From assembly GCF_001049895.1 (NCBI RefSeq), contig NZ_CVPE01000003.1, positions 248,001-312,000 on the forward strand: a stretch of 64,000 bases of DNA, read 5' to 3'. Shown in pieces: positions 43,539-61,888 of the stretch. Made by a program: the position numbers and the translations under genes. This DNA comes from Rubeoparvulum massiliense (GTDB lineage Bacteria; Bacillota; Bacilli; Rubeoparvulales; Rubeoparvulaceae). The notes beneath the pieces were generated by a model. It saw nothing but the letters and a program-made list of their open reading frames with translations. It did no database searches and was not told where the DNA came from. Positions within the stretch are counted from its first letter, which is position 1; the number at the start of each line of letters is the position of its first letter.

Positions 43539-44106
43539 GCGTCTCTCCCCCTTTGCTGGCTACACTTGATTTCACCATCATTAGCTTGAACTCTGCTTCA
43601 TACCATACGGTAGCAGAATGATTTTCATCCACTTCGGTGCTCACCTGTTGGAGCTTGAACCGCTCAACCCCTAATGCATGCTCTACATGATAGTTAAATG
43701 CAGCGATTTGCTGCAGCGAGTTCGTCTTGATTGAAAGAGCAAATTGGCCATCCCCTTCATACCATAGGCTAACAATGGTTCCATCTGAGGGTAAGAGACC
43801 GATTATTTTTTGAATAAGTGGTACCACGGGCTGAGAGGCTGCTTCTAGCATGGCTACAGCTTTTCCATATGTAAGCAGGGCTTCCTCGCCGCGATACTCC
43901 GCCAATTGGTTTTCTAACATAGTGATCTCTGCTTCTAGATAGCTTTCATACTGACTCTTAACCTCTAGCTTACTCTGAGCCGCTTGAAACTGGACACGAG
44001 ACCAAATGAGTACAACTGCCACAATGGCAAGGATGGTGATCCAGAAAATCCTTTCCACCACTTTCTTATTCTCACGCTTTGGGAGGAGATTAATATCCAC
44101 AGACAT
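43531..44106 (-). CDS. pilN: Type IV pilus assembly protein PilN-like
   Basis: A 191-residue protein beginning MSVDINLLP, the conserved N-terminal motif by which PilN docks in a groove of cytoplasmic PilM, followed by a membrane helix (about 20-38), coiled coil and a fimbrial-assembly domain (LLPSDGTIVSLWYEGDGQFALSIKTNSLQQIAAFNYHVE). It follows pilM with no gap and overlaps pilO. Confidence 0.88.
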   Translation of the reverse strand: MSVDINLLPKRENKKVVERIFWITILAIVAVVLIWSRVQFQAAQSKLEVKSQYESYLEAEITMLENQLAEYRGEEALLTYGKAVAMLEAASQPVVPLIQKIIGLLPSDGTIVSLWYEGDGQFALSIKTNSLQQIAAFNYHVEHALGVERFKLQQVSTEVDENHSATVWYEAEFKLMMVKSSVASKGGETHE

Positions 44107-45120: not shown

Positions 45121-45879
45121 TCAGTCTTGTAACCATGAAAGATATAGTGCATATAAATCCTCGCTAAAAAAGAGGAGAGTCAGCATCCCTAGGGCAATGG
45201 AGGGGCCAAAGGGGAAGGGTTTTCCTCTTTGCACATTACCTCGTAGCATGCCAAATAAGCCAATGATGGTCCCATAAAGGGAGGAGAGGAAGAGGGTGGC
45301 AAGGACTCCCTTCCAGCCGAGGAGATAACCAATTAAAGCGAAGAGCTTAATATCTCCACCCCCCATTCCACCACGGCTGATCATGGCGATAATGAGAAGT
45401 AGCAGAAAACCGACAATGGCTCCGATGATCATCTGCTTCCATGGAGCAAATGGATAGAAGAATCGTACCAATGTAAACCAGCCTGCAAAGAAGAGGAGAA
45501 TTTTATTGGGAATCAGCATATAGAGCAGGTCAGAGACCGTAATCATCACCAGTAAGGCAATGATGGAGCCTGCCATGAGGAATTGACCTGACCAGCCAAA
45601 GCGATAGAAGGCGTAGGCATAAAGCACCCCGGTGAGCAGTTCCATGATCGGGTAGAGTGGTGAAATGCGACTTTCACAATGACGACAGCGCCCACGCTGC
45701 CACAGATAGGAGAGAATAGGAATCAGCTCCCGCCATCCCAAGCGGTGCTTACATTCCGCACAATGGGAAGGGGGAGCAATCATCGAGCCTTTCTCTGGAA
45801 TCCTCGTACCAACCACCTGGTAAAAGGAGCCGAGACAGGTTCCTAGTATGAACCAATAGATTGTGAAAAAGAGGTTCAT
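45121..45879 (-). CDS. pilD: Type IV prepilin peptidase/N-methyltransferase
   Basis: A 252-residue A24-family aspartyl peptidase with about eight helices. Two CxxC pairs (CAECKHRLGWRELIP and CRHCESRI) form the zinc-binding N-methylase domain; the catalytic aspartates lie in SDLLYMLIPN (near 118) and GGGDIKL (near 176). It cleaves the class III signals of the pilins encoded around it and methylates the new N-terminus. It holds the chromosome position of comC in B. subtilis, so it may also process competence pseudopilins if those exist elsewhere. Confidence 0.95.
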   Translation of the reverse strand: MNLFFTIYWFILGTCLGSFYQVVGTRIPEKGSMIAPPSHCAECKHRLGWRELIPILSYLWQRGRCRHCESRISPLYPIMELLTGVLYAYAFYRFGWSGQFLMAGSIIALLVMITVSDLLYMLIPNKILLFFAGWFTLVRFFYPFAPWKQMIIGAIVGFLLLLIIAMISRGGMGGGDIKLFALIGYLLGWKGVLATLFLSSLYGTIIGLFGMLRGNVQRGKPFPFGPSIALGMLTLLFFSEDLYALYLSWLQD

Positions 45880-45918: not shown

Positions 45919-46347
45919 TTATTTTACTGTATCATCTTTAGGATTGTTTATTTCGTCTAGAGTAATGCCTTCCGTTTCATAGTTCGTATAGGGCTTTATT
46001 TCAAGTAGCCTATGACCTATTAATTTGTATTTATACTTATTAGTAGCAGAATCTGATTCAACTAATACACTAAACGAATCACTAGATAAATTATCTAAAT
46101 AAGGGTCCAATTCTTCCTTACTGATCGTTTTTGTCTCTCCACCTTCAAGTGGTGGATATGTAGCCATAAACAACTTCGATGCTTCTAAAATTTGAATTGC
46201 TTCTGCCTTAACAGCGTCATCCTTCGTCTTGTTAATAATCCCACCAATGTTCGGAACAGCAATCGCTGCAATAATCCCTAAAATAACAATAACAGCCAAT
46301 AACTCGATCAAGGTTAAACCCTTTTCATTACGCATTAGACGTTTCAT
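45919..46347 (-). CDS. pilA: Major type IV pilin, class III signal
   Basis: A 142-residue prepilin: ten-residue basic leader MKRLMRNEKG, then LTLIELLAVIVILGIIAAIAVPN with Glu at mature position 5, and a C-terminal globular part of about 100 residues without cysteines, so no disulfide loop. It sits centrally in the pil operon between pilC and pilD and is the best candidate for the main fibre subunit. The 3' part of the gene is visibly more AT-rich than its neighbours, consistent with rapid surface diversification. A ComGC-type pseudopilin is the alternative, but the flanking pilT, pilM, pilN and pilO argue for a true pilus. Confidence 0.9.
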   Translation of the reverse strand: MKRLMRNEKGLTLIELLAVIVILGIIAAIAVPNIGGIINKTKDDAVKAEAIQILEASKLFMATYPPLEGGETKTISKEELDPYLDNLSSDSFSVLVESDSATNKYKYKLIGHRLLEIKPYTNYETEGITLDEINNPKDDTVK

Positions 46348-46368: not shown

Positions 46369-47574
46369 TTAATTGATTTGATTAAAGAGTTCGAACATCG
46401 GTACCATAATGGATAGAACGATGGTTCCTACAATCACAGCAAGGAAGATGATCATGGTGGGTTCAATCAAGGATTGAAGCCGTTCAGTGGCTTGTTCCAC
46501 TTCCGTCTCATAGAATTGCGCCACCTTATCTAGCATTTGATCCAGTGTCCCAGTCTGTTCTCCAATGGCAATCATCTGTGTCACCATAGGTGGAAAAACC
46601 CAATGACTTTTTAAGGGAACTGTGATCGATTCGCCACTACCTAAAGAGTGGCGCGACTTATGGATGAGCTGAACCATCACCTCATTATCCAATACCTCTT
46701 CCACAATGGCGAAGGCTTGCAAGATAGGAACGGAGCTGACGAATAACGAACTTAAGGTGCTGCTCATACGAGAAATCTGTGACTTTTGAATAATTTTTCC
46801 AACGATAGGCAACTTTAATTTAGCATAATCTAGGTAGTATTTACTAGTTTTATTCCGTTTTAAAAGGCACAAAACTGTGTACAAAGTCGCAATAACGATA
46901 GCGATGATCCACCAATACATTTGGATCCAGGCACTACTATCTAGCACAAACTGCGTAATGGCTGGAAGCTCACTACCAAATTGCAGAAACATATCAGCGA
47001 ACATGGGAACTACGGTGGCCAGTAAAAAGATGATCACGGCAATGGCAAAAATCCCTACAGCTACTGGATAGGTGAGAGCGGAGATCACCTTTTGCCGCAA
47101 GCGATGCTGCTTCTCATAGTAGGTAGCCATTCGATCTAGGGTATCATCTAATGTTCCGCTTGCCTCTCCTGCCTTCACCATGTTGATAATGAGTGGTGTG
47201 AAGATCCGTGGGTGCTGTGCCATCGCCTTGGATAAAGGATGACCCTGCCGCAGTTCCTCTTCAATTTTCTCCAGTGCATGTTGCAGTGTTCTACTCTCTG
47301 TCTGATCGATCAGAATCCTAATCGCTTCCACAATAGTGACACCTGCTCGTATCAATGTGGCTAACTGGCGTAAGAAAAGCACAAACTGTGTTGGTTTGAC
47401 TGCCCTACCTACTTGGATCTCTCGATAAAACAGACTCTTACTCTCCTGCAATTGCATGACCTTGATTCCCCGCTTACGCAAACGCTGCGTAGCCTCTTTG
47501 GTTGAATCTGCCTTCACCTTCCCCTCGCACAGCTCACCACGGGAGTTTCGTCCCTCATAGAGATAGAGAGGCAT
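46369..47574 (-). CDS. pilC: Type IV pilus inner-membrane platform protein PilC
   Basis: A 401-residue protein of the GspF/PilC family with two repeats of the T2SSF domain (FLRQLATLIRAGVTIVEAIRIL near 68 and RMSSTLSSLFVSSVPILQAFAI near 270) and three helices (about 170-192, 217-236, 375-396). It turns under the action of PilB and PilT to add or remove pilins. It begins 3 nt after pilT. Confidence 0.95.
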   Translation of the reverse strand: MPLYLYEGRNSRGELCEGKVKADSTKEATQRLRKRGIKVMQLQESKSLFYREIQVGRAVKPTQFVLFLRQLATLIRAGVTIVEAIRILIDQTESRTLQHALEKIEEELRQGHPLSKAMAQHPRIFTPLIINMVKAGEASGTLDDTLDRMATYYEKQHRLRQKVISALTYPVAVGIFAIAVIIFLLATVVPMFADMFLQFGSELPAITQFVLDSSAWIQMYWWIIAIVIATLYTVLCLLKRNKTSKYYLDYAKLKLPIVGKIIQKSQISRMSSTLSSLFVSSVPILQAFAIVEEVLDNEVMVQLIHKSRHSLGSGESITVPLKSHWVFPPMVTQMIAIGEQTGTLDQMLDKVAQFYETEVEQATERLQSLIEPTMIIFLAVIVGTIVLSIMVPMFELFNQIN

Positions 47575-47577
47575 GGA

Positions 47578-48615
47578 TTACATCCCTCCTTCTCCGAGAA
47601 TAGGCGATGCGCTATCAAAGCAGACCAGTCCCTGATTAAGCAATGTCCGCACTGCAGACTCCATGGTTTGCATCCCCTGAGACCGACTGGTCTGCATCAC
47701 CGTTAGAATTTGGTGTGTCTTTTCATTACGAATCAGATTGGCTACTGCTGGATTATTAATGAGGATTTCTAAAGCTGCTCGTCGCCCTCCCTGCTTCAAG
47801 GGCAAGAGACGCTGTGAAATAATCGCTTGTAAAACATTGGAGAGCTGCAAACGAATCTGACCTTGCTGACTGGATGGAAAGACATCGATAATCCGATCGA
47901 TGGTGGCGAGAGCCGAACTGGTATGTAATGTTGCTAATACAAGGTGACCGGTCTCTGCTGCAGTAATGGCAGTAGCAATGGTTTCCAGATCTCGCATCTC
48001 CCCGACCATAATTACATCTGGATCCTGCCGTAATGCTGCCCGTAAGCCATTGGAAAAACTACTGGTATCATTTCCTACTTCCCTTTGCTCAATGATGGAC
48101 TGTTCGTGATGATGTAAATACTCAATAGGGTCCTCCAAGGTGATGATGTGGCGATGCATATGTTGATTCATGTACTGAATCATCGCAGCTAGGGTGGTAG
48201 ATTTACCACTACCAGTAGGACCGGTAACAAGTACTAGCCCATGTACTTTTCCTGCTAGCTCGCGGATGGTATTCGGTAGATTCAACACCTCCAGTGTGGG
48301 TACCATCGTTGGTATCAAGCGAAGGGCTAGGCTTACCTGACCTCGTTGAAAAAATGCATTGACACGAAACCGTACCTTCCCTTCATATTCAAAGGAAAAG
48401 TCAAGCTCCCCCAACTGATTGAACTCCTCCCAACGCTGAGACGGGACTAGCTCCTCTGCAATCTTCGCTGTCTCCTCAGCACTAAGCACCGCTTGTTGAC
48501 TGGGATGGAGCGCACCATCAATGCGTAGAATAGGAGGGAGCCCAGATGAGATATGGATATCTGAAGCTCGATCCTGGATGGCTTGATTAATGGCTAATTG
48601 TAAGTGTTCATTCAT
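47578..48615 (-). CDS. pilT: Type IV pilus retraction ATPase PilT
   Basis: A 345-residue hexameric ATPase: N-terminal PAS-like region (DIHISSGLPPILRIDG), Walker A GPTGSGKST, Asp box, Walker B region with VGEMRD, His box (LVLATLHTSSALATIDRIIDVFP) and the C-terminal AVANLIRNEK, which corresponds to the AIRNLIRE motif needed for retraction. Presence of PilT implies retractile pili able to drive twitching. The ATG at 48615 follows AGGTGATA; a GTG three codons earlier is less likely. Confidence 0.95.
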   Translation of the reverse strand: MNEHLQLAINQAIQDRASDIHISSGLPPILRIDGALHPSQQAVLSAEETAKIAEELVPSQRWEEFNQLGELDFSFEYEGKVRFRVNAFFQRGQVSLALRLIPTMVPTLEVLNLPNTIRELAGKVHGLVLVTGPTGSGKSTTLAAMIQYMNQHMHRHIITLEDPIEYLHHHEQSIIEQREVGNDTSSFSNGLRAALRQDPDVIMVGEMRDLETIATAITAAETGHLVLATLHTSSALATIDRIIDVFPSSQQGQIRLQLSNVLQAIISQRLLPLKQGGRRAALEILINNPAVANLIRNEKTHQILTVMQTSRSQGMQTMESAVRTLLNQGLVCFDSASPILGEGGM

Positions 48616-48624
48616 CCTTATCAC

Positions 48625-50286
48625 CTACTCATCTATAGTTACGCGAAGCACTTCATCGAGAGTGGTCAACCCTTCGCTCACTTTGCGTAGACCATCTTCT
48701 AGTAAAAAGATTGTTCCTTGATCCTTCGCATACTGACGGATTTCAAAAAGTGAGGCTTTTTCCATGATCATCTGCTTCATTTGATCATCTAGAATCAGGA
48801 TTTCCTGCAAGGCGATTCTCCCTTTATAGCCTGTCATATTACAGGTACCACAGCCCTTGCCATAGATCACCTCGTCTAGCTCCAGGCCATGCTTGGTAAA
48901 AAGCTCTTTTTCCCATTGTTCAGGTGGACGTTTCGTTTTGCAGTCACGGCAGACACGACGTACTAGTCTTTGTGACATTACACCACTGACCGATGCTGCC
49001 ACCAGAAAGGGTTCAATTCCCATATCCACAAGACGAATGATGGTGCTTACAGAATCATTGGTATGAAGGGTACTTAATACCAAGTGACCTGTCAGCGAAG
49101 CGCGGATGGCGATCTCCGCTGTTTCGAGGTCACGAATTTCTCCTACCATCACAATATTAGGATCCTGTCGTAGGATGGAGCGCAATCCACGGGCAAAGGT
49201 AAGACCCACCTTACCATTCACCTGAACTTGATTAATCCCTTCAATCTGATACTCCACCGGATCCTCCACGGTGATAATATTAACCGCCTCATCATTCAAG
49301 TAGTTTAAGGTGGCATAGAGCGTAGAAGTCTTACCACTCCCCGTAGGTCCAGTGATTAAGATGATACCAGTAGGTCGCTGGATCAAGTTCATATAGCGCT
49401 TGAGATTCAGCTTGTTCAATTCCAACTTGCTAAGCTCGTTCAGGGCATTTCCCAAATCTAATACACGTAGAACCACCTTTTCACCATAAACGGTGGGCAA
49501 TGTCGAGATACGGAGGTCAATGGGATGAAAATCAAGATCTACCTTAATCCGACCATCCTGGGGAAGACGCGATTCTGTAATATCCATTTCCCCCATCACC
49601 TTAATTCGGGCAATCAGGACATTCTGCATATGTTTCGGAAGGGTTCGTTCCGTCCGTAGCACGCCATCTACGCGATAACGAACCAGAACCTGTGACTCTT
49701 GCGGATCAATATGGATATCACTAGCCTGAAGCTCAACAGCATGTTGGAGCAGCTGATTAACGAGACGAATAACAGGTGTCTCTTCTTCTTCCGTATTGAA
49801 TGCTTCTGTCTCCTCTGGCGCCTGCGAATAGCTCAGCCATTCTTCTACTGTTTGATCGGATCCATAGTAGCTATTGATGGCTCGTAATATATCATACTTG
49901 GTAGCGATGACTGGATCGATTTCAAATCCTGTAGCCATTCTCAAATCATCCATCGCAATATAATCGAGAGGATCGGCCATTGCAACGATTAATTTATTCC
50001 CATTGCGCTTTAATGGAATCAAGAGATTACGCTTCGCTTCTTCCTTTGAAATTAACGTAAATAGATTGGTATCAAAAGGATAGCGGTACAGACTTACATG
50101 GGGGATGCCTAACTGAAATTCTAACGCTTCAATTAATTGAAGCTCTGTAATGAAGCCCTGTTCAAGTAAGGCATCACCCAATCTTTGATTCGGTTTCTTA
50201 CTGGCCAACGTTTGCTGCAATTGCTCTTCAGAAATTAATCCTGTTTCAACAAGTAAATCGCCCAAACGTTTCCGCTCCGTAATCAC
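48625..50286 (-). CDS. pilB: Type IV pilus extension ATPase PilB with MshEN-type c-di-GMP-binding N-terminus
   Basis: About 553 residues. The N-terminus has two 28-residue-spaced copies of the MshEN motif, RLGDLLVETGLISEEQLQQTL (7-27) and RLGDALLEQGFITELQLIEAL (35-55), which bind c-di-GMP in MshE and related ATPases. The ATPase core has Walker A GPTGSGKT, VGEIRD, LVLSTLHTNDS, and a four-cysteine zinc site (CRDC and CGTC). It powers pilus extension. The GTG at 50286 is preferred, with AAAGGGGAG 9 nt upstream; an ATG at 50307 would add seven residues. It heads the eight-gene minus-strand pil operon. Confidence 0.93.
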   Translation of the reverse strand: MITERKRLGDLLVETGLISEEQLQQTLASKKPNQRLGDALLEQGFITELQLIEALEFQLGIPHVSLYRYPFDTNLFTLISKEEAKRNLLIPLKRNGNKLIVAMADPLDYIAMDDLRMATGFEIDPVIATKYDILRAINSYYGSDQTVEEWLSYSQAPEETEAFNTEEEETPVIRLVNQLLQHAVELQASDIHIDPQESQVLVRYRVDGVLRTERTLPKHMQNVLIARIKVMGEMDITESRLPQDGRIKVDLDFHPIDLRISTLPTVYGEKVVLRVLDLGNALNELSKLELNKLNLKRYMNLIQRPTGIILITGPTGSGKTSTLYATLNYLNDEAVNIITVEDPVEYQIEGINQVQVNGKVGLTFARGLRSILRQDPNIVMVGEIRDLETAEIAIRASLTGHLVLSTLHTNDSVSTIIRLVDMGIEPFLVAASVSGVMSQRLVRRVCRDCKTKRPPEQWEKELFTKHGLELDEVIYGKGCGTCNMTGYKGRIALQEILILDDQMKQMIMEKASLFEIRQYAKDQGTIFLLEDGLRKVSEGLTTLDEVLRVTIDE

Positions 50287-50607
50287 GCCATCCATCTCCC
50301 CTTTCATAACTCCGATTACTTAAATAGTACTCTCTACCTATATACTACTTGTGTTTAAGCCTCTTCGCTAGTAAAAATAGGGTGGTAATCGTGTATAAAA
50401 ATGATATTTTAGAACGATATGAAGGTGAATTTTTGATATTTTACCATAAATAATCTCGTATCATGATCCCGATTCCTTGTTAACATTGTATAATATAAGT
50501 GATTTCATGGGTAATTTTTAGAAGAATTGTAACAATTATTTCATTTATTGGCTGATTGATACTTTTGTACTAGCTTCTGTCGCTACTTTCATTTTTATAA
50601 AGGAGGG
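50287..50607. promoter_or_regulatory. Divergent promoter region of the two pil transcripts
   Basis: An AT-rich gene-free stretch between pilB (-) and the first minor-pilin gene (+). For the plus strand a perfect TATAAT is at 50489-50494 but without a good -35. For the minus strand TAGTATAT near 50340-50350 is a possible -10. No c-di-GMP riboswitch core was recognised. An activator may be needed at both promoters. Confidence 0.4.
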
Positions 50608-51105
50608 ATGATGCAAACAATGAAGGATGACCAAGGCAAGCAAAAAGAGAATGGATTTACCCTATTGGAAGTGGTCTTAAGCATTACCCTCCTTACCATC
50701 ATTACTGTAAGTATGTTTGGCTTTTTTCAACAAGCCTATCTCTTTAATCAATTGAATCAGAGTAAAACCGTGGCAGTGAGCCTTGGACACAATGCGTTAG
50801 TCTATTTAGAGAAACAAGACACCCTTTATTCCGCCTTACTAGAGCATGAGGATATTCGTATCAGCCCTACGCTACTTGAACTGGATGAAATGAACTGCAA
50901 AAAATACGGATTGAATCCAAGTGTTTTTTTGCCCATTGTCAATAATGTTGTATATCATATGACCGCAGAAATACAGCTCCATCAAGATCCCAAATTACAA
51001 GATTATCTCCTGCCAGTACGTTTAACCGTTCATTGGCAAGTAAAGGAGGCGACCTATGAAACAACGGTGGAAGGATACATCTATAATAACCAGCCCACGA
51101 TGTAA
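50608..51105 (+). CDS. Minor prepilin, PilV/PilI type
   Basis: A 165-residue protein with a class III signal: charged leader ending KENG, then FTLLEVVLSITLLTIITVSMFGFF with Glu at mature position 5. The soluble part has no recognised fold. It is the first of three plus-strand pilin-like genes that probably form the priming tip complex. Three in-frame ATGs (50608, 50611, 50620) follow AAGGAGGG; which one is used does not affect the mature protein. It overlaps the next gene by 50 nt. Confidence 0.8.
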   Translation: MMQTMKDDQGKQKENGFTLLEVVLSITLLTIITVSMFGFFQQAYLFNQLNQSKTVAVSLGHNALVYLEKQDTLYSALLEHEDIRISPTLLELDEMNCKKYGLNPSVFLPIVNNVVYHMTAEIQLHQDPKLQDYLLPVRLTVHWQVKEATYETTVEGYIYNNQPTM

Positions 51106-51676
51106 AGTGAGCTACGATCAGAATGAGCTAAGTCCTCAGGGAGAAGAAGGCTTCACCTTAATCGAATTGTTAGCGGGCTTAGCCCTCTCTAGTCTGGTCA
51201 TTATCCTGATCACTTCTGTACTTGTTTCAGGTATCCACCTTTTCAATAACATCGGTACAGAAGCCATCTTACGTGATGAAGCGGATGCGATGATGAGTAC
51301 CATTATTGAACGCCTCTATAATTACCATCCTGATGAGCTAATGGATGGAGCATTTAATCTGCCAGGAGAGATCCAATTTCGCGTTAAAAATCTTGATGAT
51401 GGCAGAGGGATTCAGCTCTATTATGTGATGAGGACAGATCCTGATCAACGCCTCTTTCCACAAGATATTCTCTTGCAGGATGGTGTGCTTCGTATCGGTG
51501 AAGAGACGGTTAGCCATCCCACAGTGAATGTGATGGGTACCATTCGGTTGCTTGAAACGGATGATATTGAAGCAGAAGCCTATGGCTATCGAGAAGGGAC
51601 AATTGAGGTTGACCTTACATTAACCCATCAGGAAGATGGAAAAACATTAGATGTAAAAAGTAGCTTTGGCTTCTAG
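51056..51676 (+). CDS. Minor prepilin, PilW/PilJ type
   Basis: A 206-residue protein with an unusually long leader (31 residues) before the class III site EEG|FTLIELLAGLALSSLVIILI, Glu at mature position 5. The chosen ATG has GGAGG 6 nt upstream, inside the preceding gene, so translation is coupled by a 50-nt overlap. The remainder (DEADAMMSTIIERLYNYHPDEL, VDLTLTHQEDGKTL) resembles the general PilW layout. Likely a tip-complex pseudopilin. Confidence 0.78.
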   Translation: MKQRWKDTSIITSPRCKVSYDQNELSPQGEEGFTLIELLAGLALSSLVIILITSVLVSGIHLFNNIGTEAILRDEADAMMSTIIERLYNYHPDELMDGAFNLPGEIQFRVKNLDDGRGIQLYYVMRTDPDQRLFPQDILLQDGVLRIGEETVSHPTVNVMGTIRLLETDDIEAEAYGYREGTIEVDLTLTHQEDGKTLDVKSSFGF

Positions 51677-51703
51677 CCAAGGGGTATAGGAGGTGGTAAA
51701 TCG

Positions 51704-53335
51704 ATGCAAAATGAGCGGGGATCGGCCTTAATTCTTGTTCTCCTTGTCAGTATGATTTTTACCATTCTTGGTGTAGCCATTCTAAAAACTAGCCTACATG
51801 GAACAGTGAGAACAGAGTATCGTGAGAGCGATGTACAAGCTATGCAAATCGCTGAGAAGGTATTGGATTTGGCTACCACAGAGGTACAGGTTTTGATGAA
51901 GGATTATGATGGTACATTGAATGTGGATACCTTTCTCACACAATATATCTCCAATCTCGATCAGAATGAACAGCTTCTCAATTCCATGAGTAAATTATCT
52001 GATGAAATGGGACTTCCCGGGGATCGTATCGACTTTGAGATCACTAGCATCGACCGCCTCAGCAAGGATGCCCCTGATCAGAATAGAAAACTATATGCAA
52101 GCTTGCAGGAAGCTAGTAAAGAGGAATATCTCGCTACCTTCCAACTCCGAGCAACCATCGAGATGGAGGATGGCGTAAAGCGTACACTGGTACAGGAATT
52201 ATTAGTCAGTGCCTACCCGAGCTTTTTACGCTATGCCTTAGGGACAGAAGGAATACTGACCATCAATGGTGGAGCCTTCATCCAAGGGGATGTCTATGCT
52301 GGTAAGGGAACGCTTCCTAGTACCACGGCAAATTATTATTTTCGTGGAGTGAACGATGCATTTCAAACGTGTAAACCAACGATCAATGGAAGATTTTATC
52401 TCCCTCCATCTACAGAAAGTCTGCACGATTATGATAGTAACTTAACAAAATGGGGAACGACACAGTTTGATGGTGCAGTCAAATTCTTTTTCCATAATAA
52501 TCAATTTCTCAGCGTAGACGTAGAATCCTCCTTCCAAGATCAATTACGCAATATTGGTTCCATCCCGAATTTAGGAGGTGTAGAGCAATTTAACACCTCC
52601 TTTTATCCGAAACCCTCTGAACCGTGGAAATGGAATGGAATTCAGATCACGAAATCCACCAAATTCTCCGATCGCCAGTCACCATTCTATCTCTATGACA
52701 ACCTGGAAATTAATAATGGAGAATGGTTGGTCATCGAAGGCGATGTAGTGATTGAGCCCTTATCTCTCGGAGAAGAGGAACGACAGATTGCCCTTGAGCA
52801 GGGAATATTATTGCCACCAGATCCGCTCAGCATCACTGGGAATTTGTTAATAGAAGGAGAGCTCATCATCCGTGGGAATGTAGACTTCAATCATTCTACC
52901 ATCTACGTAAAGGGAAATACCACCATCGATGAAGCCAATATTGCTGGCAAAGATCCCGTTGTGCTATTAACCAGTGGTGAGCTATTGATCAATCGAATCA
53001 ATGAGTTTAATAATAAGTTCCAACCTGAGAAGAAGTTAAAAGCCTACCTCTATACTGATCGTAAAGCGATTCTTTATGGGGTCGGCTCTTACCTCAATAT
53101 TGAGGGTGGCGTTTTTGCCAAGGAGAGCCTTGAGATCAATGCCGTTCGAGGAGAAACCAAGACCAATGGTGCTAAAACCAGGATCGGGTATAACCCTCTC
53201 CATGATGACCTGGAAAAATCACGGCTGAAAGTAACCTACGATCCTAGCTTCTATATTACGCAAGCAGATAGCTTGCCTCGCGTTGACCAAATCGAAGTGA
53301 TTCGAGGAAAACGATACGTAGAATATGAGAAATAG
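51704..53335 (+). CDS. PilX-like large pilus-tip protein with beta-helix C-terminus
   Basis: A 543-residue protein with a PilX/GspK-type N-terminus: MQNERG|SALILVLLVSMIFTILGVAIL, without the Glu at position 5, as expected for the terminal member of a tip complex. After about 150 helical residues the protein becomes beta-rich with spaced repeats (GDVVIEPLSLG, SITGNLLIEGELIIRGNVDF, STIYVKGNTTIDEANIAG, YLNIEGGVFAKESLEINA) like bactofilin or pectate-lyase-type helices. This could be an adhesive tip domain. The ribosome site is AGGAGG. A convergent terminator follows at once. Confidence 0.75.
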   Translation: MQNERGSALILVLLVSMIFTILGVAILKTSLHGTVRTEYRESDVQAMQIAEKVLDLATTEVQVLMKDYDGTLNVDTFLTQYISNLDQNEQLLNSMSKLSDEMGLPGDRIDFEITSIDRLSKDAPDQNRKLYASLQEASKEEYLATFQLRATIEMEDGVKRTLVQELLVSAYPSFLRYALGTEGILTINGGAFIQGDVYAGKGTLPSTTANYYFRGVNDAFQTCKPTINGRFYLPPSTESLHDYDSNLTKWGTTQFDGAVKFFFHNNQFLSVDVESSFQDQLRNIGSIPNLGGVEQFNTSFYPKPSEPWKWNGIQITKSTKFSDRQSPFYLYDNLEINNGEWLVIEGDVVIEPLSLGEEERQIALEQGILLPPDPLSITGNLLIEGELIIRGNVDFNHSTIYVKGNTTIDEANIAGKDPVVLLTSGELLINRINEFNNKFQPEKKLKAYLYTDRKAILYGVGSYLNIEGGVFAKESLEINAVRGETKTNGAKTRIGYNPLHDDLEKSRLKVTYDPSFYITQADSLPRVDQIEVIRGKRYVEYEK

Positions 53336-53379
53336 AGAAGAAGCACCTAAGCGAAATATTGCTTAGATGCTTCTTCTCT
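53334..53379. terminator. Strong hairpin between convergent pilX-like and DUF5057-like genes
   Basis: AGAGAAGAAGCACCTAAGC pairs with GCTTAGATGCTTCTTCTCT (18 of 19) around an 8-nt loop. T-runs are poor in both directions, but the convergent position suggests termination or transcript protection on both sides. Confidence 0.65.
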
Positions 53380-53399
53380 CAATCTCTTCCATGAATCCT

Positions 53400-56300
53400 T
53401 TAATAGCGCCAATCATCATGCTTCTTCGGTACTACTGTTACCCTAATTTTCTTCTCATATTCGTAGACCTGTAGATTATCAGGATCCTGCAGCATCACAC
53501 GGAGTGTAACATCTGCTAGACCCTCTCGTAGTGCAATGGCATATCCTTTATTATTAACCAGTAAAATGTCCGGTTTCGATGAGGACCACTCCTCACCGAT
53601 CACAAGCTGATTCTGATCATAGTCTCTGATGTTTGTTAACTGATAGTTGATGCTCCTACCTGTTCCTCGTTCCAACTCAAGATCTGCACTATTTAGTCCT
53701 ACAACATGTACTTCTCCTGATTGGAGTGGGATGCCATCTGTTGTTTTGGCAATCAACCTGGTAGTTCCTGGACTCTTCCCGATGAGATAGTTACCATGAA
53801 TGGACGCCACGGGAGGACCAGTAATCTCAAAACTTAGCCCTGGTCGACAGCCTTTGGGTTGAATTTCATAGGAAATCGATTTACTTTGCCCCTGAAATAG
53901 GGTAATCGGACCAATCTGCTTTAGCCGATATGGGATTAAGCTTATCTCTGGAAATGGCTGTGAAAAGTTTGATTCTCCTTCTTGCTTTAAATAAGCATGT
54001 AAGGGATAAGCTGGCTGACTTAAGATCATCTCACGATTAACAGCTTTCAATTTGAACTGGAATGTATAGGGATTCGGCATCAACGTGTTTGGATCAATGC
54101 TAAACTGATCCTTAGGTAAGGATCCTTCTAATAGATCGCCTTGATCATTCTTCTGTACATTGATCCAGTCAGGCCTCTCGAAAGCTTCAAATCCCTCGGG
54201 AAGCTGTAATGAAAAGCTCCAATCTCCATAGGGGAATAGAGTATAATTTTGAACCTTGAAATTCTTATTTCCATCCTTTGCAGCTTCAGCCTCACCTAAT
54301 TGAGCAAAGCCACGTAGTTGAAGCTTGCGCTCATTACTGCCATTATTATTGAGGTCGAAGTCATCTACCACAAAAACAATCAGCTTTGCATTTGGGTCCA
54401 TATTGGATGGGAAGTTAATAAACACATCGTTCTTTCCACTTGGATCGGCGCCAGGATTATTCTTACTTGGATCAAGCTCTACCTTCCCATTTTTAAGTGC
54501 TTCGAGAAAGTCGATACTAGCAAAGTTGTACGTTGAATTATTTCCCTTCTGCTCAGTCTTTACCCAAAACCAGCTTGCTCCCCCCTCAGCTGATTGGGGA
54601 GAATTTTTTTTCTCATTTACTTTGAAGGCGATCTTTTCATTGACACCATATTGTTGAAGCTCATTACTCTTAATCACCATGGGAAGGAAGGTAGCATTCT
54701 TGAGATCAAATGGTTGATTCACTAAACGGTTGGCACCGATCGTATAGGATAACTCTACTTGATTGGATTTATCCGTATTTAGTGGAAGATAGGCCTGCTT
54801 TGGTGAGCTTAGTAAATTGAAGGGTTCTGTCACCAAAACAAACTCAACTTGATCCTTAGCACCTGATTGATCCCATGCCTCAATACGAATCGGTACAATG
54901 GGGGGGAACTCAGTCAATTGAAGATCCTTTGGTGAGACATCTAATGAGATGGTACTTCCCTTTGTCACCTTCTGATACTTATGTTGCAAACTGTGTCCTA
55001 CTGTCTGGGAGGTATGATTAATATTCACCTCCACCTTGTTAATCCAGTGGTCTTTAAAATCATAATCATCCACACGAAACTTGAGATGAATGGTCTTCTC
55101 TGGACTGTGTGATACCTCATTTCCATCATTAAGCTGTGGTGAGAGCACACTAATAATCGGTGCATGGTTGGAGCCCATGAATGCACGATAGATCGTATTC
55201 ACAAGCAGCTTCTGTTCATCCTCAGTCGGTGGATCTAATACATTTCGATAGATATCCCACCTTAATAAATGTCCGCTTCCTGAGAATGTAATATTCCCTT
55301 TGGAATAGGTGTAATAGTGATGCCAGGTGTCATACACATTATCACGCCACTTAAAGATGCTGTCATTATCAATATTGAACCAAGGAATAATTGAAGGGTC
55401 CTCTAAATCTAGCTGAAAATATTGATTATGTGTATTAGATACAGTTATTTGCTCAGGTAATAGGAAAGGGTATTGGGTAATTAATCCTTGATTAACACGG
55501 ATCGCTTTTGTTGATGGAAAAAAAGCATTTAACCCCATACTATCCCATGTGTCTGTCTGACCAATAATAGAGCGAAAATTTTTCGTCCAATCATTCTCAA
55601 TCGGGTTCCATAACCAATTCTCTGCATAGATGGAATCATGGGTAAACATAACTGATTGACCGCTAGCAATATATTGATTTATAGAGTTGAGCACCTCTGA
55701 TGGAATCCGCTCTGGCTTCTTATTCTCCTTGGAATTATACAGATCCTTAAAGCCGAAGATCACCATATTATAGTTACCATTGAGCTGTTCATGTGTTGAT
55801 TCGCAAAATTCTGCATAGGTCACGGCATCGGTTTCAATCTGATAATCCTCCGACTCTAATAGATTCTGTGCCATCAGCTCATCAGCCTTAAGATCAAGGT
55901 CATCCAAATTTTTCTTCACCTGTAATACCTTAATCTTTGTTAGATGATCTCGAAAGCGGAAGGAATTCTCAACATAATCCTGTCTCTGACTAGATTCATC
56001 GATAATGTTCAGTTTCCAATAGTAGAGACCTGAATAGCCATGAGGCAATTGATAGCTAAGGGTATAGGTACCATCTTTATTCCTTACCAACTCCTCAAGG
56101 TTCGAAGAAACAATCACTTCATCCATTGCTTCAGTTTCTTCATACTGATGATTATAGTTAAAGTCGATGAAGAGCTTAACCTTCAGCTGTTGAGGTTGGA
56201 ACTTGCCTTCATTGGGAATGGAAAAGTTAAACTTGATTTCGTTTTCAGGCGAATAATAATGAGCTGTGGAGTCCTTATATGAGATTGGATTATCTAGCAA

Positions 56301-56978
56301 TTGAATATATGGGCGTGGATTCGCATCCATGTAGGTTCGAAGATCTCCGATAAAACGGTCACGATCTTTCACAGAGGTAATGACGCCAAAAATATTCTTC
56401 TCCCCATACACTTCCTCATCTCGATAGAAAAGCACTCGCTCTGGATGCTCCTCCCAGTACGGACCAAGCACCTTCTTGATATTTCCTTCTCGATGGACTC
56501 CTACTAAATAATTATCTGAAGTAAATGCTCTAGGAAGGAGAACTGGAATCCCTTTATCAAGATAGAATTGGATAATTTGTTCTGCCTTATATTGAGTGAT
56601 ATCATTACTACCGAAATATGTATTTAGACCGATATTAACCTTTAGTGGATAATAGTTGCCTTTTCCAAACATGATTAAGTCATACTTGCCATTCAATTCT
56701 TCCCGTAAGGCAACAAATTGCTTCATGGAGATAAAGGTGGCTTCTACCTCCTGCTCTCGAAATAGATCCTGATAAAATTGGGTAAGCTGCTCTTCAAGCT
56801 TATTCTGAATGAAATCGATTTGGTCTTTATCATAAATATAGAGCACCTTCGCCGCTGGCAGCCCCGCTCTTGGATCTGACGCATCGGATGCACCATCTGC
56901 AGCCAATGATGGCAAAGCACTAGTACAAACCAAGACTACTGCGATGAAGAGTGAGACGATTTGCCGATAGAATTTCAC
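53400..56978 (-). CDS. Large secreted DUF5057-like protein with Ig-like C-terminus
   Basis: About 1193 residues. Signal peptide at the start (KFYRQIVSLFIAVVLVCTSALPSLAA), then two related alpha/beta modules, each with a LNGKYDLIMFG / LNGNYNMVIFG core followed by a helix and a GIPVLLPRAFTSDNYL / GQSVMFTHDSIYAENW strand; this pattern is what I know as DUF5057. Middle parts are beta-rich. The last 200 residues look like two BIG2-type Ig domains (ITLFQGQSKSISYEI..., LELERGTGRSINYQL...). No catalytic motif was recognised. The GTG at 56978 is preferred: GGAGG lies 9 nt upstream, whereas the ATG at 56987 touches it. It follows a GGDEF gene and converges on the minor pilins, so a role as surface adhesin or pilus partner is inferred. 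Confidence 0.72.
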   Translation of the reverse strand: MKFYRQIVSLFIAVVLVCTSALPSLAADGASDASDPRAGLPAAKVLYIYDKDQIDFIQNKLEEQLTQFYQDLFREQEVEATFISMKQFVALREELNGKYDLIMFGKGNYYPLKVNIGLNTYFGSNDITQYKAEQIIQFYLDKGIPVLLPRAFTSDNYLVGVHREGNIKKVLGPYWEEHPERVLFYRDEEVYGEKNIFGVITSVKDRDRFIGDLRTYMDANPRPYIQLLDNPISYKDSTAHYYSPENEIKFNFSIPNEGKFQPQQLKVKLFIDFNYNHQYEETEAMDEVIVSSNLEELVRNKDGTYTLSYQLPHGYSGLYYWKLNIIDESSQRQDYVENSFRFRDHLTKIKVLQVKKNLDDLDLKADELMAQNLLESEDYQIETDAVTYAEFCESTHEQLNGNYNMVIFGFKDLYNSKENKKPERIPSEVLNSINQYIASGQSVMFTHDSIYAENWLWNPIENDWTKNFRSIIGQTDTWDSMGLNAFFPSTKAIRVNQGLITQYPFLLPEQITVSNTHNQYFQLDLEDPSIIPWFNIDNDSIFKWRDNVYDTWHHYYTYSKGNITFSGSGHLLRWDIYRNVLDPPTEDEQKLLVNTIYRAFMGSNHAPIISVLSPQLNDGNEVSHSPEKTIHLKFRVDDYDFKDHWINKVEVNINHTSQTVGHSLQHKYQKVTKGSTISLDVSPKDLQLTEFPPIVPIRIEAWDQSGAKDQVEFVLVTEPFNLLSSPKQAYLPLNTDKSNQVELSYTIGANRLVNQPFDLKNATFLPMVIKSNELQQYGVNEKIAFKVNEKKNSPQSAEGGASWFWVKTEQKGNNSTYNFASIDFLEALKNGKVELDPSKNNPGADPSGKNDVFINFPSNMDPNAKLIVFVVDDFDLNNNGSNERKLQLRGFAQLGEAEAAKDGNKNFKVQNYTLFPYGDWSFSLQLPEGFEAFERPDWINVQKNDQGDLLEGSLPKDQFSIDPNTLMPNPYTFQFKLKAVNREMILSQPAYPLHAYLKQEGESNFSQPFPEISLIPYRLKQIGPITLFQGQSKSISYEIQPKGCRPGLSFEITGPPVASIHGNYLIGKSPGTTRLIAKTTDGIPLQSGEVHVVGLNSADLELERGTGRSINYQLTNIRDYDQNQLVIGEEWSSSKPDILLVNNKGYAIALREGLADVTLRVMLQDPDNLQVYEYEKKIRVTVVPKKHDDWRY

Positions 56979-57015
56979 TTGAATCATCCTCCCCCAGCCC
57001 CATATTCCTCTTTCA

Positions 57016-57044
57016 ATTATACCAAAATTCCTATTATTCACGAA
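57016..57044 (-). promoter_or_regulatory. Candidate promoter of the DUF5057-like gene
   Basis: Extended -10 TGGTATAAT (TATAAT at 57021-57016) with a weak -35 TTCGTG at 17-bp spacing on the minus strand. Confidence 0.5.
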
Positions 57045-57072
57045 TTTACCACCCCAAAAATGGAGTGGTAAA
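57045..57072 (-). other. Hairpin between the GGDEF gene and the DUF5057-like gene
   Basis: TTTACCACTCC pairs with GGGGTGGTAAA (one G-U) around ATTTTT on the minus strand. It has no T-run, and lies directly before the downstream promoter; attenuator, processing site or operator are all possible. Confidence 0.45.
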
Positions 57073-57130
57073 TAGAGATGATTTCGATTTTTCGCCATAA
57101 TTATCAGGGCCTTTTCTGTAATCAGCGTCC

Positions 57131-58876
57131 TTATCCCTGCTCATACACCGCTACCTTGTTCCGTCCTGCTTGCTTCGCTCCAATATACATAGCACGGTCA
57201 GCATGACGAATGAGACTAAGGGGATCCTCAGCGTGCTGCGGATAGTTAGCAAGTCCCATGCTGACGGTGATCTCTACTTCTTCCATGTTCTCCTCTGATG
57301 TCCCCTCGCATTCTAAGTCATTACAAACCTGAATGTGGCTCTGTTCGATCTTCTCCCGTATGCAGTCAGCAAATTCATATGCCTGATCCACATTATACTC
57401 TGGTAGCACTACCACGAACTCTTCCCCACCATAACGGGCAACAAAGGCATCCTGAAGTTGAAGTGCCTCCACCTCACCTTGCATCAGCTGAGCGATATGT
57501 TGGAGGATTTGATTCCCTGCATAGTGACCATAACGATCATTCACCTGCTTAAAGTGATCGATATCTAACAGAATGAGAGACATAGTGGAATTGGGTGTTA
57601 ATTCTTGGAATAGTAAATATAATTGACGTTCAAAGTAACGATAATTATAAAGACCCGTCATCTCATCCACTTCTGCCCTCTTTCTCGTCTCTTCAAAATG
57701 CTCCGCATTTTTCAAGGCAATGGCTGCTTCAGAAGCTAGGATACCTAAAAGCATCTCATCTCGCTTCGAGTAGACCCCTGCCTCCTGAGTGCTCAGCGTA
57801 AGCACGCCAAATAAATTACGATTAATCAGAAGGGGAAAGGCTACAATTGAAGACTGTGGTTGAAAAAGTAGCGGTTCATGCTCCCAATGAGCCTCCCTTC
57901 TGCTTTTGGTGGTACGGATGATCTCTTGGCGCTCTGCTGCTAACCCACTCAAGCCTTTTCCAATGGGAACAGGTGTCTGCAGGAAGACAGCTTCAACCTC
58001 TGGAGTTACAGCAGGTCCATCGATGGCAACAGGTGCTAAGTGATGCCTCTTCTCATCAACAAGAAAGAGATAGGCAAAATCATATTGAGCCAAACCCTGT
58101 AATGATTGAATCAGTTCCTTTACCACCTCATTTACCTGCAGCTTGGACGTCAGAAATTGTGAGATCTCATTAAGTCTAGATAGACGGTGATTCAGCTCTT
58201 GAAGCTGGTGATAAAGGCGAAAAATATAGGAAAAGGCAAGGATGGGAAAGGCCATATAAAAGAGTGAACCAACACCCATCATTTGATACAATCCATAAAT
58301 GATAAAGCCGATGGGAAAGAGAATGACATAGGTGAGTAACTCCTGCCAAAAATCTTCAGCAAAAAAGTTCTCCATCTTCTCCTTGTTAAGCATGCTCCGT
58401 GCCGACTTCACCAACAAACGATTCAGCAACAGATATGCCAATACATAAAGAATTACGAGGAAAAGATCATGGCTGGTATACGCAATTAAGGGCTTCCCTA
58501 GCTCCCCACCAAGATAGTAATAGAAGAAGCCGGACCCCAGCGATGTATAGAGCAGGATAAGTAGATTGATAGCGATCCGTTCAATAGAAAAAATCCGCAA
58601 CGCAATAAATGCGGAAATATGAGCTAATTGGGTTAAAAATGCCTCTGCGAAAACTCCATATTCAAGGAAAAATGGGAGCGTGATGGCTAGCGACATGGTA
58701 AATGCTTCGCCATGAATGGTGAAAGGAAATAGATTTACCAGAAGATAGAGAAATAGAAAGGCAATAAAGATCAGAAAATGATCTTCCACTTCCATAAAAA
58801 AATGTTCAAGAGTAGCAAAGTTAAAAAACAATAGATATGACCCCAGTAAAGAGGTTATAATAAGCCACCGCTTCAT
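57131..58876 (-). CDS. Membrane-bound GAF-GGDEF diguanylate cyclase
   Basis: A 581-residue protein: about seven hydrophobic segments in residues 5-220 (a MASE-like sensor), a short coiled coil, GAF domain at about 245-390, and GGDEF domain at about 400-578. The catalytic loop is G483-G-E-E-F487 with metal ligand in LLDIDHFKQVND, so it should make c-di-GMP. The product-inhibition RxxD site is missing (LQDA at that position). It is separated from murC by a terminator and lies beside the DUF5057-like and pil genes; PilB there has a c-di-GMP-type N-terminus, suggesting a local signalling link. Confidence 0.9.
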   Translation of the reverse strand: MKRWLIITSLLGSYLLFFNFATLEHFFMEVEDHFLIFIAFLFLYLLVNLFPFTIHGEAFTMSLAITLPFFLEYGVFAEAFLTQLAHISAFIALRIFSIERIAINLLILLYTSLGSGFFYYYLGGELGKPLIAYTSHDLFLVILYVLAYLLLNRLLVKSARSMLNKEKMENFFAEDFWQELLTYVILFPIGFIIYGLYQMMGVGSLFYMAFPILAFSYIFRLYHQLQELNHRLSRLNEISQFLTSKLQVNEVVKELIQSLQGLAQYDFAYLFLVDEKRHHLAPVAIDGPAVTPEVEAVFLQTPVPIGKGLSGLAAERQEIIRTTKSRREAHWEHEPLLFQPQSSIVAFPLLINRNLFGVLTLSTQEAGVYSKRDEMLLGILASEAAIALKNAEHFEETRKRAEVDEMTGLYNYRYFERQLYLLFQELTPNSTMSLILLDIDHFKQVNDRYGHYAGNQILQHIAQLMQGEVEALQLQDAFVARYGGEEFVVVLPEYNVDQAYEFADCIREKIEQSHIQVCNDLECEGTSEENMEEVEITVSMGLANYPQHAEDPLSLIRHADRAMYIGAKQAGRNKVAVYEQG

Positions 58877-59003: not shown

Positions 59004-59040
59004 TAAAAAAACGCCCTCTCCCTTAAAGGGAGAAGGCGTT
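59004..59040 (-). terminator. Rho-independent terminator of valS-folC-murC
   Basis: AACGCC..CTCCCTT pairs with AAGGGAG..GGCGTT, followed by TTTTTTTA on the minus strand, 12 nt after the murC stop. Confidence 0.9.
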
Positions 59041-59052
59041 ACACATCTTTTG

Positions 59053-60438
59053 CTATGGTTTTGTATGAGTTACCTGCCGCTTTTCTAGAAGTTGGGTTCC
59101 CACCTTCCAGATATCTGTTGCCCCCATAGTGAGGACAAGATGATGCCCTAAATCCTTATTAAGGAGATATTGTAAAATCTCATCCTTACTTGCTACATAA
59201 TGAACATGCGAATTACTTTTCTCCTTGATTAATTCAGCAAGGCGCTTTGCACTTACACCCTCGATCTGTTTCTCACCTGCTGGTGAATAAATATCTGTGA
59301 TGATCACTTCATCTGCATCAGCAAAGGCCTGACCAAATTGCTCAAAAAGATAGTAAGTACGGGTATAGCGTTGTGGTTGAAAGATCGCTACAATTCGTCG
59401 ACCTGTTCCCTTGGCTGCTTCAAGTGTTGCACGAATCTCCGTTGGATGATGAGCATAATCATCCACAATGAGACAATCATCGATGTCACCGATGATTTGA
59501 AAACGCCGTTTCGCATTGGTAAAATGCTGCATCGCATCAGCAATACAAGAGAAACTCACACCCAGGAACCGTCCCACAGCAATGGCTGCTAGAGCATTGC
59601 TTACATTATGCTTTCCAGGCACCGGCAATGTAATCCGACCTAATGGTTTACCATACTCCAGTAAATCGAAGGAAATGGAGCAGTTCCCCTCTTCAATATT
59701 GATAGCTTGGTAATCCCCTGCACCTTGGCGACCATAAGTGATCACTTCACCGCGGAGTTTCGGGAGCATCTCACGGAGATGGAGATCATCCATGGAGATG
59801 ATGGCCATGCCCCCTTCCCGCACTTGAGAAAGATATTGCTCATAGGCTGCTAATAAATTGCTAAATTGTCCGCCATAATTCTCTAGATGGTCCGCTTCAA
59901 TATTGGTCACAACGGAGAGATAGGGATGATAATGCAAGAATGAACGATCACTTTCATCTGCTTCCGCCACCACATAAGGGCTTTTACCTGCTCGAGCATT
60001 CCCACCTAGTCCAACCACATTGCCGCCGATCAAGAAGGAAGGATCCAACTCAGCATGGGTTAATAAGAAGGCGATCATGGAGGAGGTGGTGGTCTTTCCA
60101 TGGGAGCCTGCTACGGTGATCCCTTTCTTCTCATTAACAAGACGGGCTAACATCTGTGAGCGATGAAAGAGAGGAATTCCTTGTTCCTTTGCTGTGATCA
60201 TTTCCACATTCTCAGAAGGAATACCTGATGAATAGACGACCCAGTCCGCACCATTCACATGCTCAGCTGCATGACCTTGATAGATGGTTACGCCTAATTC
60301 TTGTAATTGCTTGGTTAATTCATTCTGTTGCATATCAGAGCCAGAGACTGTATAGCCTGACTCCACCATGATGCGTGCAACGGCACTCATCCCATATCCT
60401 CCGACTCCAATAAAATGAACATGCTCTTTGACGGACAC
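59053..60438 (-). CDS. murC: UDP-N-acetylmuramate--L-alanine ligase
   Basis: MurC adds L-alanine to UDP-MurNAc, the first amino acid of the peptidoglycan stem. Visible motifs: HFIGVGGYGMS, ATP loop AGSHGKTTTSS, EADESDRSF and DDYAHHPTEI. The GTG at 60438 is used because AAGGAG stands 9 nt before it and the resulting N-terminus fits the family; ATGs at 60456 and 60477 would lie within or overlap the end of folC and lack ribosome sites. Length about 461. It is coupled to folC, which ends at 60456. Confidence 0.95.
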   Translation of the reverse strand: MSVKEHVHFIGVGGYGMSAVARIMVESGYTVSGSDMQQNELTKQLQELGVTIYQGHAAEHVNGADWVVYSSGIPSENVEMITAKEQGIPLFHRSQMLARLVNEKKGITVAGSHGKTTTSSMIAFLLTHAELDPSFLIGGNVVGLGGNARAGKSPYVVAEADESDRSFLHYHPYLSVVTNIEADHLENYGGQFSNLLAAYEQYLSQVREGGMAIISMDDLHLREMLPKLRGEVITYGRQGAGDYQAINIEEGNCSISFDLLEYGKPLGRITLPVPGKHNVSNALAAIAVGRFLGVSFSCIADAMQHFTNAKRRFQIIGDIDDCLIVDDYAHHPTEIRATLEAAKGTGRRIVAIFQPQRYTRTYYLFEQFGQAFADADEVIITDIYSPAGEKQIEGVSAKRLAELIKEKSNSHVHYVASKDEILQYLLNKDLGHHLVLTMGATDIWKVGTQLLEKRQVTHTKP

Positions 60439-60455
60439 GTCCCTCATCTCCTTCA

Positions 60456-61856
60456 TCAGACTTGCTTCTTCAACCATTGACGCACTTCAGAAATAAAATA
60501 AAGTGAGCCAGTAACAATACAGACATCCTCCTTGGACAAGGTAGGAAGCGTAGCTTTCCATGCCTCATGCCAATCAGCAAAGACTTGAATTCGTTCTGGT
60601 GATAAGTACTTCGCTGCATGTTGCCCCAATTCTTCGGCAGAATGTGCCCGCCGATCGGAGAAGCTGGTACAGATTAGTTGATCAGCCATCGGTGCAAGAT
60701 CCTGAAGCACCGCATCGATCTCCTTCCCTTCAATAGCACTATAGATGATAGTAAGTCGCTTATCCTTTAAAGGGATTTTTACTGCTCCTTCTAGCTCCAC
60801 CTCGACTTCTTGAATGGTCTTCGCCAGACTACGTGCTCCTGGTTCATTATGAGCACCATCGAGGATAATGAGTGGGTCCCGTTTCATCACTTCAAAGCGA
60901 CCTGCCCATTTGGTCTTTTTCATGCCCTGACGAATGGTCTTTTCCTCAAGGATGGTGGCATAGTAGCTCTCCAAAACCTCCAGTGCCTTCAGGGCAACTG
61001 CGGCATTCAACTTTTGATGCTCACCAAGTAAGGGTAACTCCACCTGATCCAATTGGTGAAATATAGATCGATATTGTATGGATTGATGAACGCCCATCTC
61101 ATCACCCGCCTGTTTCGGCATGGTGATCGTTGGAGCTTCCACCATCTCAGCAAAAAAATCCTGATTCCACTGATACACCTTCGCCTTTTTCGCTTGAGCC
61201 ACCCGTTCAATCACAGGCCATGCAGGGTCATCTGGAGCAACCCCTGTAATCACAGGAACCCCTGACTTAATAATTCCTGCTTTCTCCTCTGCGATTTTTT
61301 CAATGGTATCGCCCAATATATTTATATGATCCCGACCGATAGTTGTGATAATTGAAATGATGGGAAAAATCACATTGGTGGCATCGAGACGACCACCGAG
61401 TCCTGTTTCCCAAACGACGAAGTAGGGACAGCTAATCTCACGATAGTAGAGGAGTGCTGCTGCCGTAATCACCTCAAATTCAGTGGGGCTACCTAAAGGA
61501 CCTTCTGCACATTTGTCCACCAAAGGCTTGATTCGATTTAATACGGTAACGAGATCCTCATCAAGTATATCTTTACCATTAAATTGAATTCGATTCTGAA
61601 ATCGCTCGATATATGGCGATGTATAGAGACCCACGTCATAACCAGCTTCGTTAAGAACCGTAGCAAGGTATGAAGCAGTTGATCCCTTCCCATTGGTTCC
61701 AGCAATATGAATAAATTTTAGGTGTAATTCTGGATTATCCAGTTCCTTTAAGAGCCATTCCATCCGACGTAATCCTGGCTTAATTCCTAAAGAGACGAGA
61801 CCGTGTACCCAATCGATTGCTTCCTCAGCGGTTTGAAATGTAGCCACTTTAGACAC
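60456..61856 (-). CDS. folC: Folylpolyglutamate synthase / dihydrofolate synthase
   Basis: A 466-residue Mur-ligase-family enzyme that adds glutamate to folates (and often dihydropteroate). Motifs: P-loop HIAGTNGKGSTASYL near 50, TSPYIERFQNRIQ, GLGGRLDATN and ILDGAHNEPGARSL. It lies 32 nt after valS, the same order as in B. subtilis, with no terminator in between. Confidence 0.96.
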   Translation of the reverse strand: MSKVATFQTAEEAIDWVHGLVSLGIKPGLRRMEWLLKELDNPELHLKFIHIAGTNGKGSTASYLATVLNEAGYDVGLYTSPYIERFQNRIQFNGKDILDEDLVTVLNRIKPLVDKCAEGPLGSPTEFEVITAAALLYYREISCPYFVVWETGLGGRLDATNVIFPIISIITTIGRDHINILGDTIEKIAEEKAGIIKSGVPVITGVAPDDPAWPVIERVAQAKKAKVYQWNQDFFAEMVEAPTITMPKQAGDEMGVHQSIQYRSIFHQLDQVELPLLGEHQKLNAAVALKALEVLESYYATILEEKTIRQGMKKTKWAGRFEVMKRDPLIILDGAHNEPGARSLAKTIQEVEVELEGAVKIPLKDKRLTIIYSAIEGKEIDAVLQDLAPMADQLICTSFSDRRAHSAEELGQHAAKYLSPERIQVFADWHEAWKATLPTLSKEDVCIVTGSLYFISEVRQWLKKQV

Positions 61857-61888
61857 TTCCTTTATTTCACCATTTTTGTTTGTGCAAT

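Follow-up and report, generated by a model that had tools for sequence, protein, structure and literature searches.

How a type IV pilus locus comes to hold a putative diguanylate cyclase and a large secreted protein, and whether these serve the pilus motor, is the question raised by a stretch of 64,000 nucleotides from Rubeoparvulum massiliense (NZ_CVPE01000003.1, positions 248,001 to 312,000; hereafter the window). An earlier note had read the extension ATPase PilB, a membrane GAF-GGDEF protein and the secreted DUF5057 protein between them, here called BIG, as a self-contained module in which the cyclase signals locally to PilB through cyclic di-GMP (c-di-GMP) and BIG is an effector or partner. 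That interpretation is partly supported, and the DUF5057 protein is a better find than the link between the cyclase and PilB. The explanation that we regard as probable, taken as a whole, combines a cyclase feeding a shared c-di-GMP pool, PilB as one of its outputs and BIG as a pilus-tip adhesin.

BIG has a hydrophobic peak at residue 47, a ThuA/GATase-like domain and an immunoglobulin (Ig)-like C-terminal module; the ThuA/GATase-like fold is the one predicted by a model of a single conserved alpha/beta domain (4pxy, E 5e-8). A fold search with the DUF5057 part at full length had returned Ig-chain matches, which were discarded at a template modelling score of about 0.1, the single-domain model giving the ThuA-like fold instead. 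Comparisons were made across 201 Bacilli genomes sampled by class, with open reading frames (ORFs) called mechanically and with contig breaks that hide some neighbours; among the genomes sampled, that of the window (2.84 Mb) is the sole representative of its order. A profile search found DUF5057 proteins of the BIG kind in 21 of the 201 genomes, in five families, and in all 21 they are encoded within 20 kb of pilB, which supports the pil linkage of this gene. Elsewhere the slot of BIG, from folC/murC to the convergent PilX gene, is filled in many loci by proteins with VWA and Big_2 domains or by a headless Ig-like protein of 507 aa, and the last 220 residues are related across these heads (DUF5057 against VWA, 9e-17 and 1e-9; DUF5057 against headless, 8e-16; BIG of the window against a VWA-type protein, 1e-6). 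The tails of the slot proteins are either of a K-x-x-x-L-x type or aromatic (DDRY, DVY, DFY, GKW), a split that matches the deepest branching in the PilX tree (support 100/99), and heads have changed more often than tails (six versus three changes).

PilY1 of diderm pili combines a variable head, often VWA, with a constant C-terminal part and a predicted strand complementation with PilX (PMC13190605), and a recent review assigns PilY1 to diderms (PMC10191384). The BIG family resembles these PilY1/PilC tip adhesins as a large secreted non-pilin encoded beside the minor pilins, with a variable N-terminal head that includes VWA, a constant C-terminal part and agreement with PilX, but differs from them in its Ig-like C-terminal module in place of a beta-propeller, its DUF5057/putatively ThuA-like head and its monoderm host. 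BIG is not a member of the PilY1 family, because the C-terminal beta-propeller (PF05567) was tested for with Pfam and not found in BIG, which matched DUF5057 only; the related slot proteins likewise gave VWA and Big domains only and no beta-propeller. By analogy, the BIG family would do a PilY1-type job in Bacilli, and synteny, modularity and the agreement between tail and PilX point to BIG as a candidate tip adhesin, which specifies better what had been called an effector or partner, the kind of protein having been rightly guessed. A modular secreted family would then occupy in Bacilli pili the position taken by PilY1 in diderm ones. The literature searched yielded no paper on DUF5057 and no non-pilin tip adhesin of a monoderm type IVa pilus. 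Carbohydrate-related surface proteins, too, contain ThuA/GATase-like and Ig-like modules. This speaks for the possible alternative, to which we give the smaller share of belief, that BIG, as a cell-wall or substrate-binding protein, serves to anchor or gate the pilus, or else that it is secreted by the pilus machine; the constancy of its slot, beside PilX and convergent with it in many loci, argues for the tip instead, as does the exchange of its head for VWA with a tail type that matches the PilX clade, in parallel with PilY1 (PMC13190605).

By gene content and order, the locus as a whole belongs with the type IVa pilus loci of Bacilli and lies at their common site, bounded in synteny by valS-folC-murC on one side and SPOR-fumC-aspA-radC-mreB on the other. 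By Pfam, one cluster encodes PilB, PilT, PilC, PilD and PilM together with N-methylated pilins that bear type III signals, which is the set expected of a monoderm type IVa pilus, and the families of the two ATPases suggest that PilB drives extension of the pilus and PilT its retraction. The monoderm type IVa pili of Clostridium and Streptococcus sanguinis similarly have clustered pil genes, including those for PilM, PilT and PilD. In S. sanguinis, VWA and lectin domains are grafted onto the pilins themselves (PMC6916266), whereas here the VWA or putatively ThuA-like head is on a separate, non-pilin protein.

The two motifs 28 residues apart from which the earlier note had recognized an MshEN domain in PilB are confirmed, with starts at R14 and R42. 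PilB matches T2SSE (452 bits) and MshEN (74.9 bits, cut-off 23.1) in Pfam and, over residues 14-65, the MshE-type c-di-GMP motif NF053729 of NCBIfam (62.4 bits, cut-off 38), and phmmer aligned its residues 12-148 with the N-domain of MshE, as known from a structure that includes c-di-GMP (5htl, 1.8e-22). The domain stands, but not in its standard form. The published pair consists of two complete 24-residue motifs, each ending in Gln, with a spacer of five residues that sets them 29 apart (PMC5013675). In PilB, motif II (RLGDALLEQGFITELQLIEALEFQ) is complete to Q65, while motif I (RLGDLLVETGLISEEQLQQTLASK) has lost the c-di-GMP-contacting Gln and has Lys at position 24 (Lys37). Comparison with relatives points to a deletion of the Gln, by which the first residue of the spacer came to stand in its place. 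Among 68 PilBs compared, 37 have this Lys/28 form and 28 the Gln/29 form, and all 37 of the former fall inside one 39-row branch (Shimodaira-Hasegawa-like approximate likelihood ratio test, SH-aLRT, 99), so that the Lys-for-Gln, shorter-spacer form characterizes a single branch of PilBs in Bacilli. Loss of the corresponding Gln lowered binding of c-di-GMP by 61% in MshE Q32A (PMC4624772) and made it 158-fold weaker in PilF Q190E, with about 40% less twitching (PMC11731258), the replacements assayed being Ala and Glu, not Lys. The site in PilB is a derived variant, possibly a weaker one. Compared with Vibrio cholerae MshE, Clostridium perfringens PilB2 and Thermus thermophilus PilF, it shares the N-terminal MshEN on a PilB-type ATPase, the complete motif II and most contact positions of motif I, and differs in the Lys of motif I and in having one residue fewer before motif II. 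That MshEN mediates c-di-GMP control of pili is already known from V. cholerae, Thermus, Myxococcus and C. perfringens and is not new; the altered site on one branch matters because the presence of MshEN is often equated with binding of c-di-GMP.

The membrane GAF-GGDEF protein, for its part, has the intact GGEEF and lacks the RxxD inhibitory site (I-site), as had been claimed, and its gene stops 6.8 kb from the start of pilB, close to the 7 kb first given, with three plus-strand pilin-like genes and BIG in between. The protein has about seven or eight hydrophobic segments besides its GAF and GGDEF domains, and the motifs of a cyclase, RYGGEEF and the first metal-binding Asp in LLDIDHF, are both conserved in the orthologues; RxxD is optional and not required for activity. 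These motifs make it an active-looking, presumptive diguanylate cyclase free of product inhibition. In a tree of 37 GGDEF relatives, the 27 folC-adjoining copies form one side of a branch with 98% SH-aLRT support, and the other side holds copies from Tad loci, degSU-comF loci and other places. GGEEF is present in all of the folC-linked copies and RxxD absent from 26/27; most of the Tad- and degSU-linked paralogues have kept it. The protein is thus like other membrane GAF-GGDEF cyclases in its membrane domain, GAF, RYGGEEF and metal Asp, but differs from them in an I-site gone across the folC-linked clade. The paralogous membrane GAF-GGDEF genes lie in the Tad pilus locus L057 (and, by gene order and tree, in L058 and L261) and between degSU and degV-comFA in L061, L062, L063 and L065 (own genome C5:262494-262994); an assignment of loci L061-L065 to Tad pili proved mistaken, since Pfam shows degSU-comF neighbourhoods in those of them that were checked. 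Among folC-linked genes, that of L222 (G085) is split into two ORFs in a genome that has its pil locus, and a tandem pair occurs in L225 and L227 (G143 and G176, one family).

In the window, the gap between the GGDEF gene and BIG is 32 bp, and terminator-like sequences, called by consensus matches only, are present 3′ of murC (a strong hairpin) and where BIG and PilX converge (a 19-bp inverted repeat). On the simplest reading, GGDEF and BIG form a predicted bicistron, set apart from valS-folC-murC and from the divergent pilB operon, which lies behind the opposing pilin genes. No c-di-GMP riboswitch was found in the window by Rfam at the gathering score.

Linkage between the cyclase gene and the pilus was measured in the 107 genomes of the 201 in which PilB was matched at the chosen threshold; a scan of named genomes for PilB by short patterns, which returned only eight Bacilli, served as a source of named examples only. 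In 19/107, pilB has an orthologue of the GGDEF gene no more than 20 kb away, and the linkage is therefore real. At the valS spot, 17 of the 64 genomes that have pilB there carry the gene, against 4 of the 86 that do not (Fisher p 2e-4, relatedness ignored), a linkage far above chance. It is not an obligatory one: three genomes (G018, G055, G070) keep the gene at folC though they encode no MshEN domain at all, and in G128 it is at folC with pilB 45 kb away. No orthologue was found with a pilB lying away from valS among the 201 genomes, and two seeming exceptions are contig breaks, with folC beside the GGDEF gene in both. Since the gene stays at folC without MshEN or an adjacent pilB and was not found with relocated pilB, it belongs to the chromosomal spot, with pil as a frequent but non-obligatory neighbour. 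A correlation between GGDEF linkage and the Lys37 form of PilB was dropped, both clustering by lineage and independent pairs showing no association.

Two other readings of the cyclase bear on these counts. That it is a dedicated local source, delivering c-di-GMP to the neighbouring PilB and triggering extension, would fit the recurrent linkage, the placement of GGDEF on the pilB strand throughout in 10 of the 19 linked loci, the status of PilB as the only MshEN protein of the genome, the loss of the I-site, which would permit a high local output, and the precedent of C. perfringens, where c-di-GMP raises surface PilA2 via PilB2 (PMC6958937; on PilB2 see also PMC11656802). We nonetheless hold it improbable: the cyclase is not dedicated to PilB, to judge by orthologues that survive without any MshEN protein and by a PilB site that is derived and possibly weaker, with motif I lacking its Gln; further, pilB is distant in G128, the GGDEF transcript is predicted to be separate from that of pilB, and the window genome has 13 other GGDEF domains (14 in total) besides eight EAL domains and two PilZ matches. 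Neither the self-containment of the module nor local signalling to PilB is thus supported. The opposite view, that the cyclase is a bystander, a folC-linked global enzyme switching motility or biofilm through PilZ proteins and near pil only by the shared valS-folC spot, draws on its tracking of valS-folC rather than pil (four genomes keep it at folC although no pilB adjoins, and none has it beside a pilB known to lie elsewhere) and on PilZ proteins in 7/7 genomes checked. It appears unlikely in view of the enrichment of GGDEF at valS loci with adjacent pilB, the contiguous same-strand order in 10 loci and the predicted bicistron with the pil-linked BIG.

In the preferred explanation, the cyclase has long resided at the folC flank; it most likely raises c-di-GMP upon a cytoplasmic GAF or membrane signal, and would most likely feed a shared pool of which pilus extension is one output, not a private channel to PilB. 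In pilus-bearing genomes, the MshEN of PilB would be one such output, with extension favoured. BIG, predicted to be co-transcribed with the cyclase, would be a secreted modular adhesin at the pilus tip, whose C-terminal module and tail dock on the minor pilin PilX and whose ThuA-like or VWA head is exchangeable; it would work like a PilY1 without beta-propeller. A lineage of putative cyclases without product inhibition is tied to the valS-folC-pil spot and outlives the pilus. More tentatively, and with less than even confidence, Bacilli type IVa pilus loci may carry an independently arisen monoderm counterpart of PilY1, built of an Ig-like module, a lineage-specific PilX-docking tail and a ThuA-like DUF5057, VWA or absent head, made here with the I-site-less cyclase, while PilB would have a lower-affinity MshEN that answers only high c-di-GMP.

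Several points weigh against the preferred explanation. Lys37 may abolish rather than weaken the binding of c-di-GMP, in which case the step through PilB would break. GGDEF is near pilB in so few of the carriers (19 of 107) that most pili of Bacilli must manage without it. No BIG-type protein was found in GGDEF-linked loci other than that of the window; cyclase and DUF5057 adhesin are combined only in the window among the sampled genomes, and the pair is therefore not a conserved module. The agreement of tail and PilX could come from co-inheritance of neighbouring genes, and the ThuA-like call comes from a model with a mean predicted local distance difference test score of 73.

Features of the locus, with coordinates in the window
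Feature	Coordinates	Strand	Basis
PilO-like	42879-43538	-	position and phmmer similarity to syntenic loci only
PilN-like	43531-44106	-	position and phmmer similarity to syntenic loci only
PilM	44107-45105 (within 42879..45105)	-	PilM_2 59 bits
Prepilin peptidase PilD	45121..45879	-	A24_N_bact and Peptidase_A24
Major pilin PilA, type III signal GLTLIELL	45919..46347	-	N_methyl 33.6 bits
PilC platform protein	46369..47574	-	T2SSF, two copies
PilT retraction ATPase	47578..48624	-	T2SSE 185 bits; top match PilT in synteny comparisons
PilB extension ATPase, 560 aa, derived MshEN domain	48625..50307	-	Pfam, NCBIfam, phmmer
Two N-methyl minor pilins of the minor-pilin operon	50608-51105, 51056-51676	+	N_methyl
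PilX/GspK-like pilin, same operon (50608..53335)	51704-53335	+	GspK 25 bits, sub-threshold; syntenic PilX family
19-bp inverted repeat, terminator-like, where BIG and PilX converge	53334..53379	-	
BIG, secreted DUF5057 protein, 1232 aa, tail DDWRY	53400..57098	-	DUF5057 86.8 bits
Membrane GAF-GGDEF protein, 581 aa	57131..58876	-	GAF 56.5 bits, GGDEF 134.5 bits
Terminator-like hairpin 3′ of murC, 14-bp stem and T run, separating valS-folC-murC from GGDEF-BIG	59010..59040	-	
murC	59053-60477	-	Pfam Mur ligase domains; synteny
folC	60456-61856	-	Pfam Mur ligase domains; synteny
valS, with folC and murC the conserved left border	61889 onwards (valS-folC-murC block 59053..63949)	-	synteny

Pfam gave no match for the PilN-like and PilO-like proteins. 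In most of the Bacilli loci compared, a gene for a VanW-G5 protein lies directly upstream of pilB (L083:8625-9965 and equivalents), and it is missing from the window near 50307-50608. The record JAGGQZ010000003.1 (L081), titled Chryseobacterium sp. ISL-80, has a typical Bacilli valS-folC-GGDEF-pil-radC-mreB locus, so that its name looks wrong. Outside the pil genes, Rfam identifies the leader of ribosomal protein L21 (RF00559, 46.2 bits) at window positions 26186-26266 on the minus strand.

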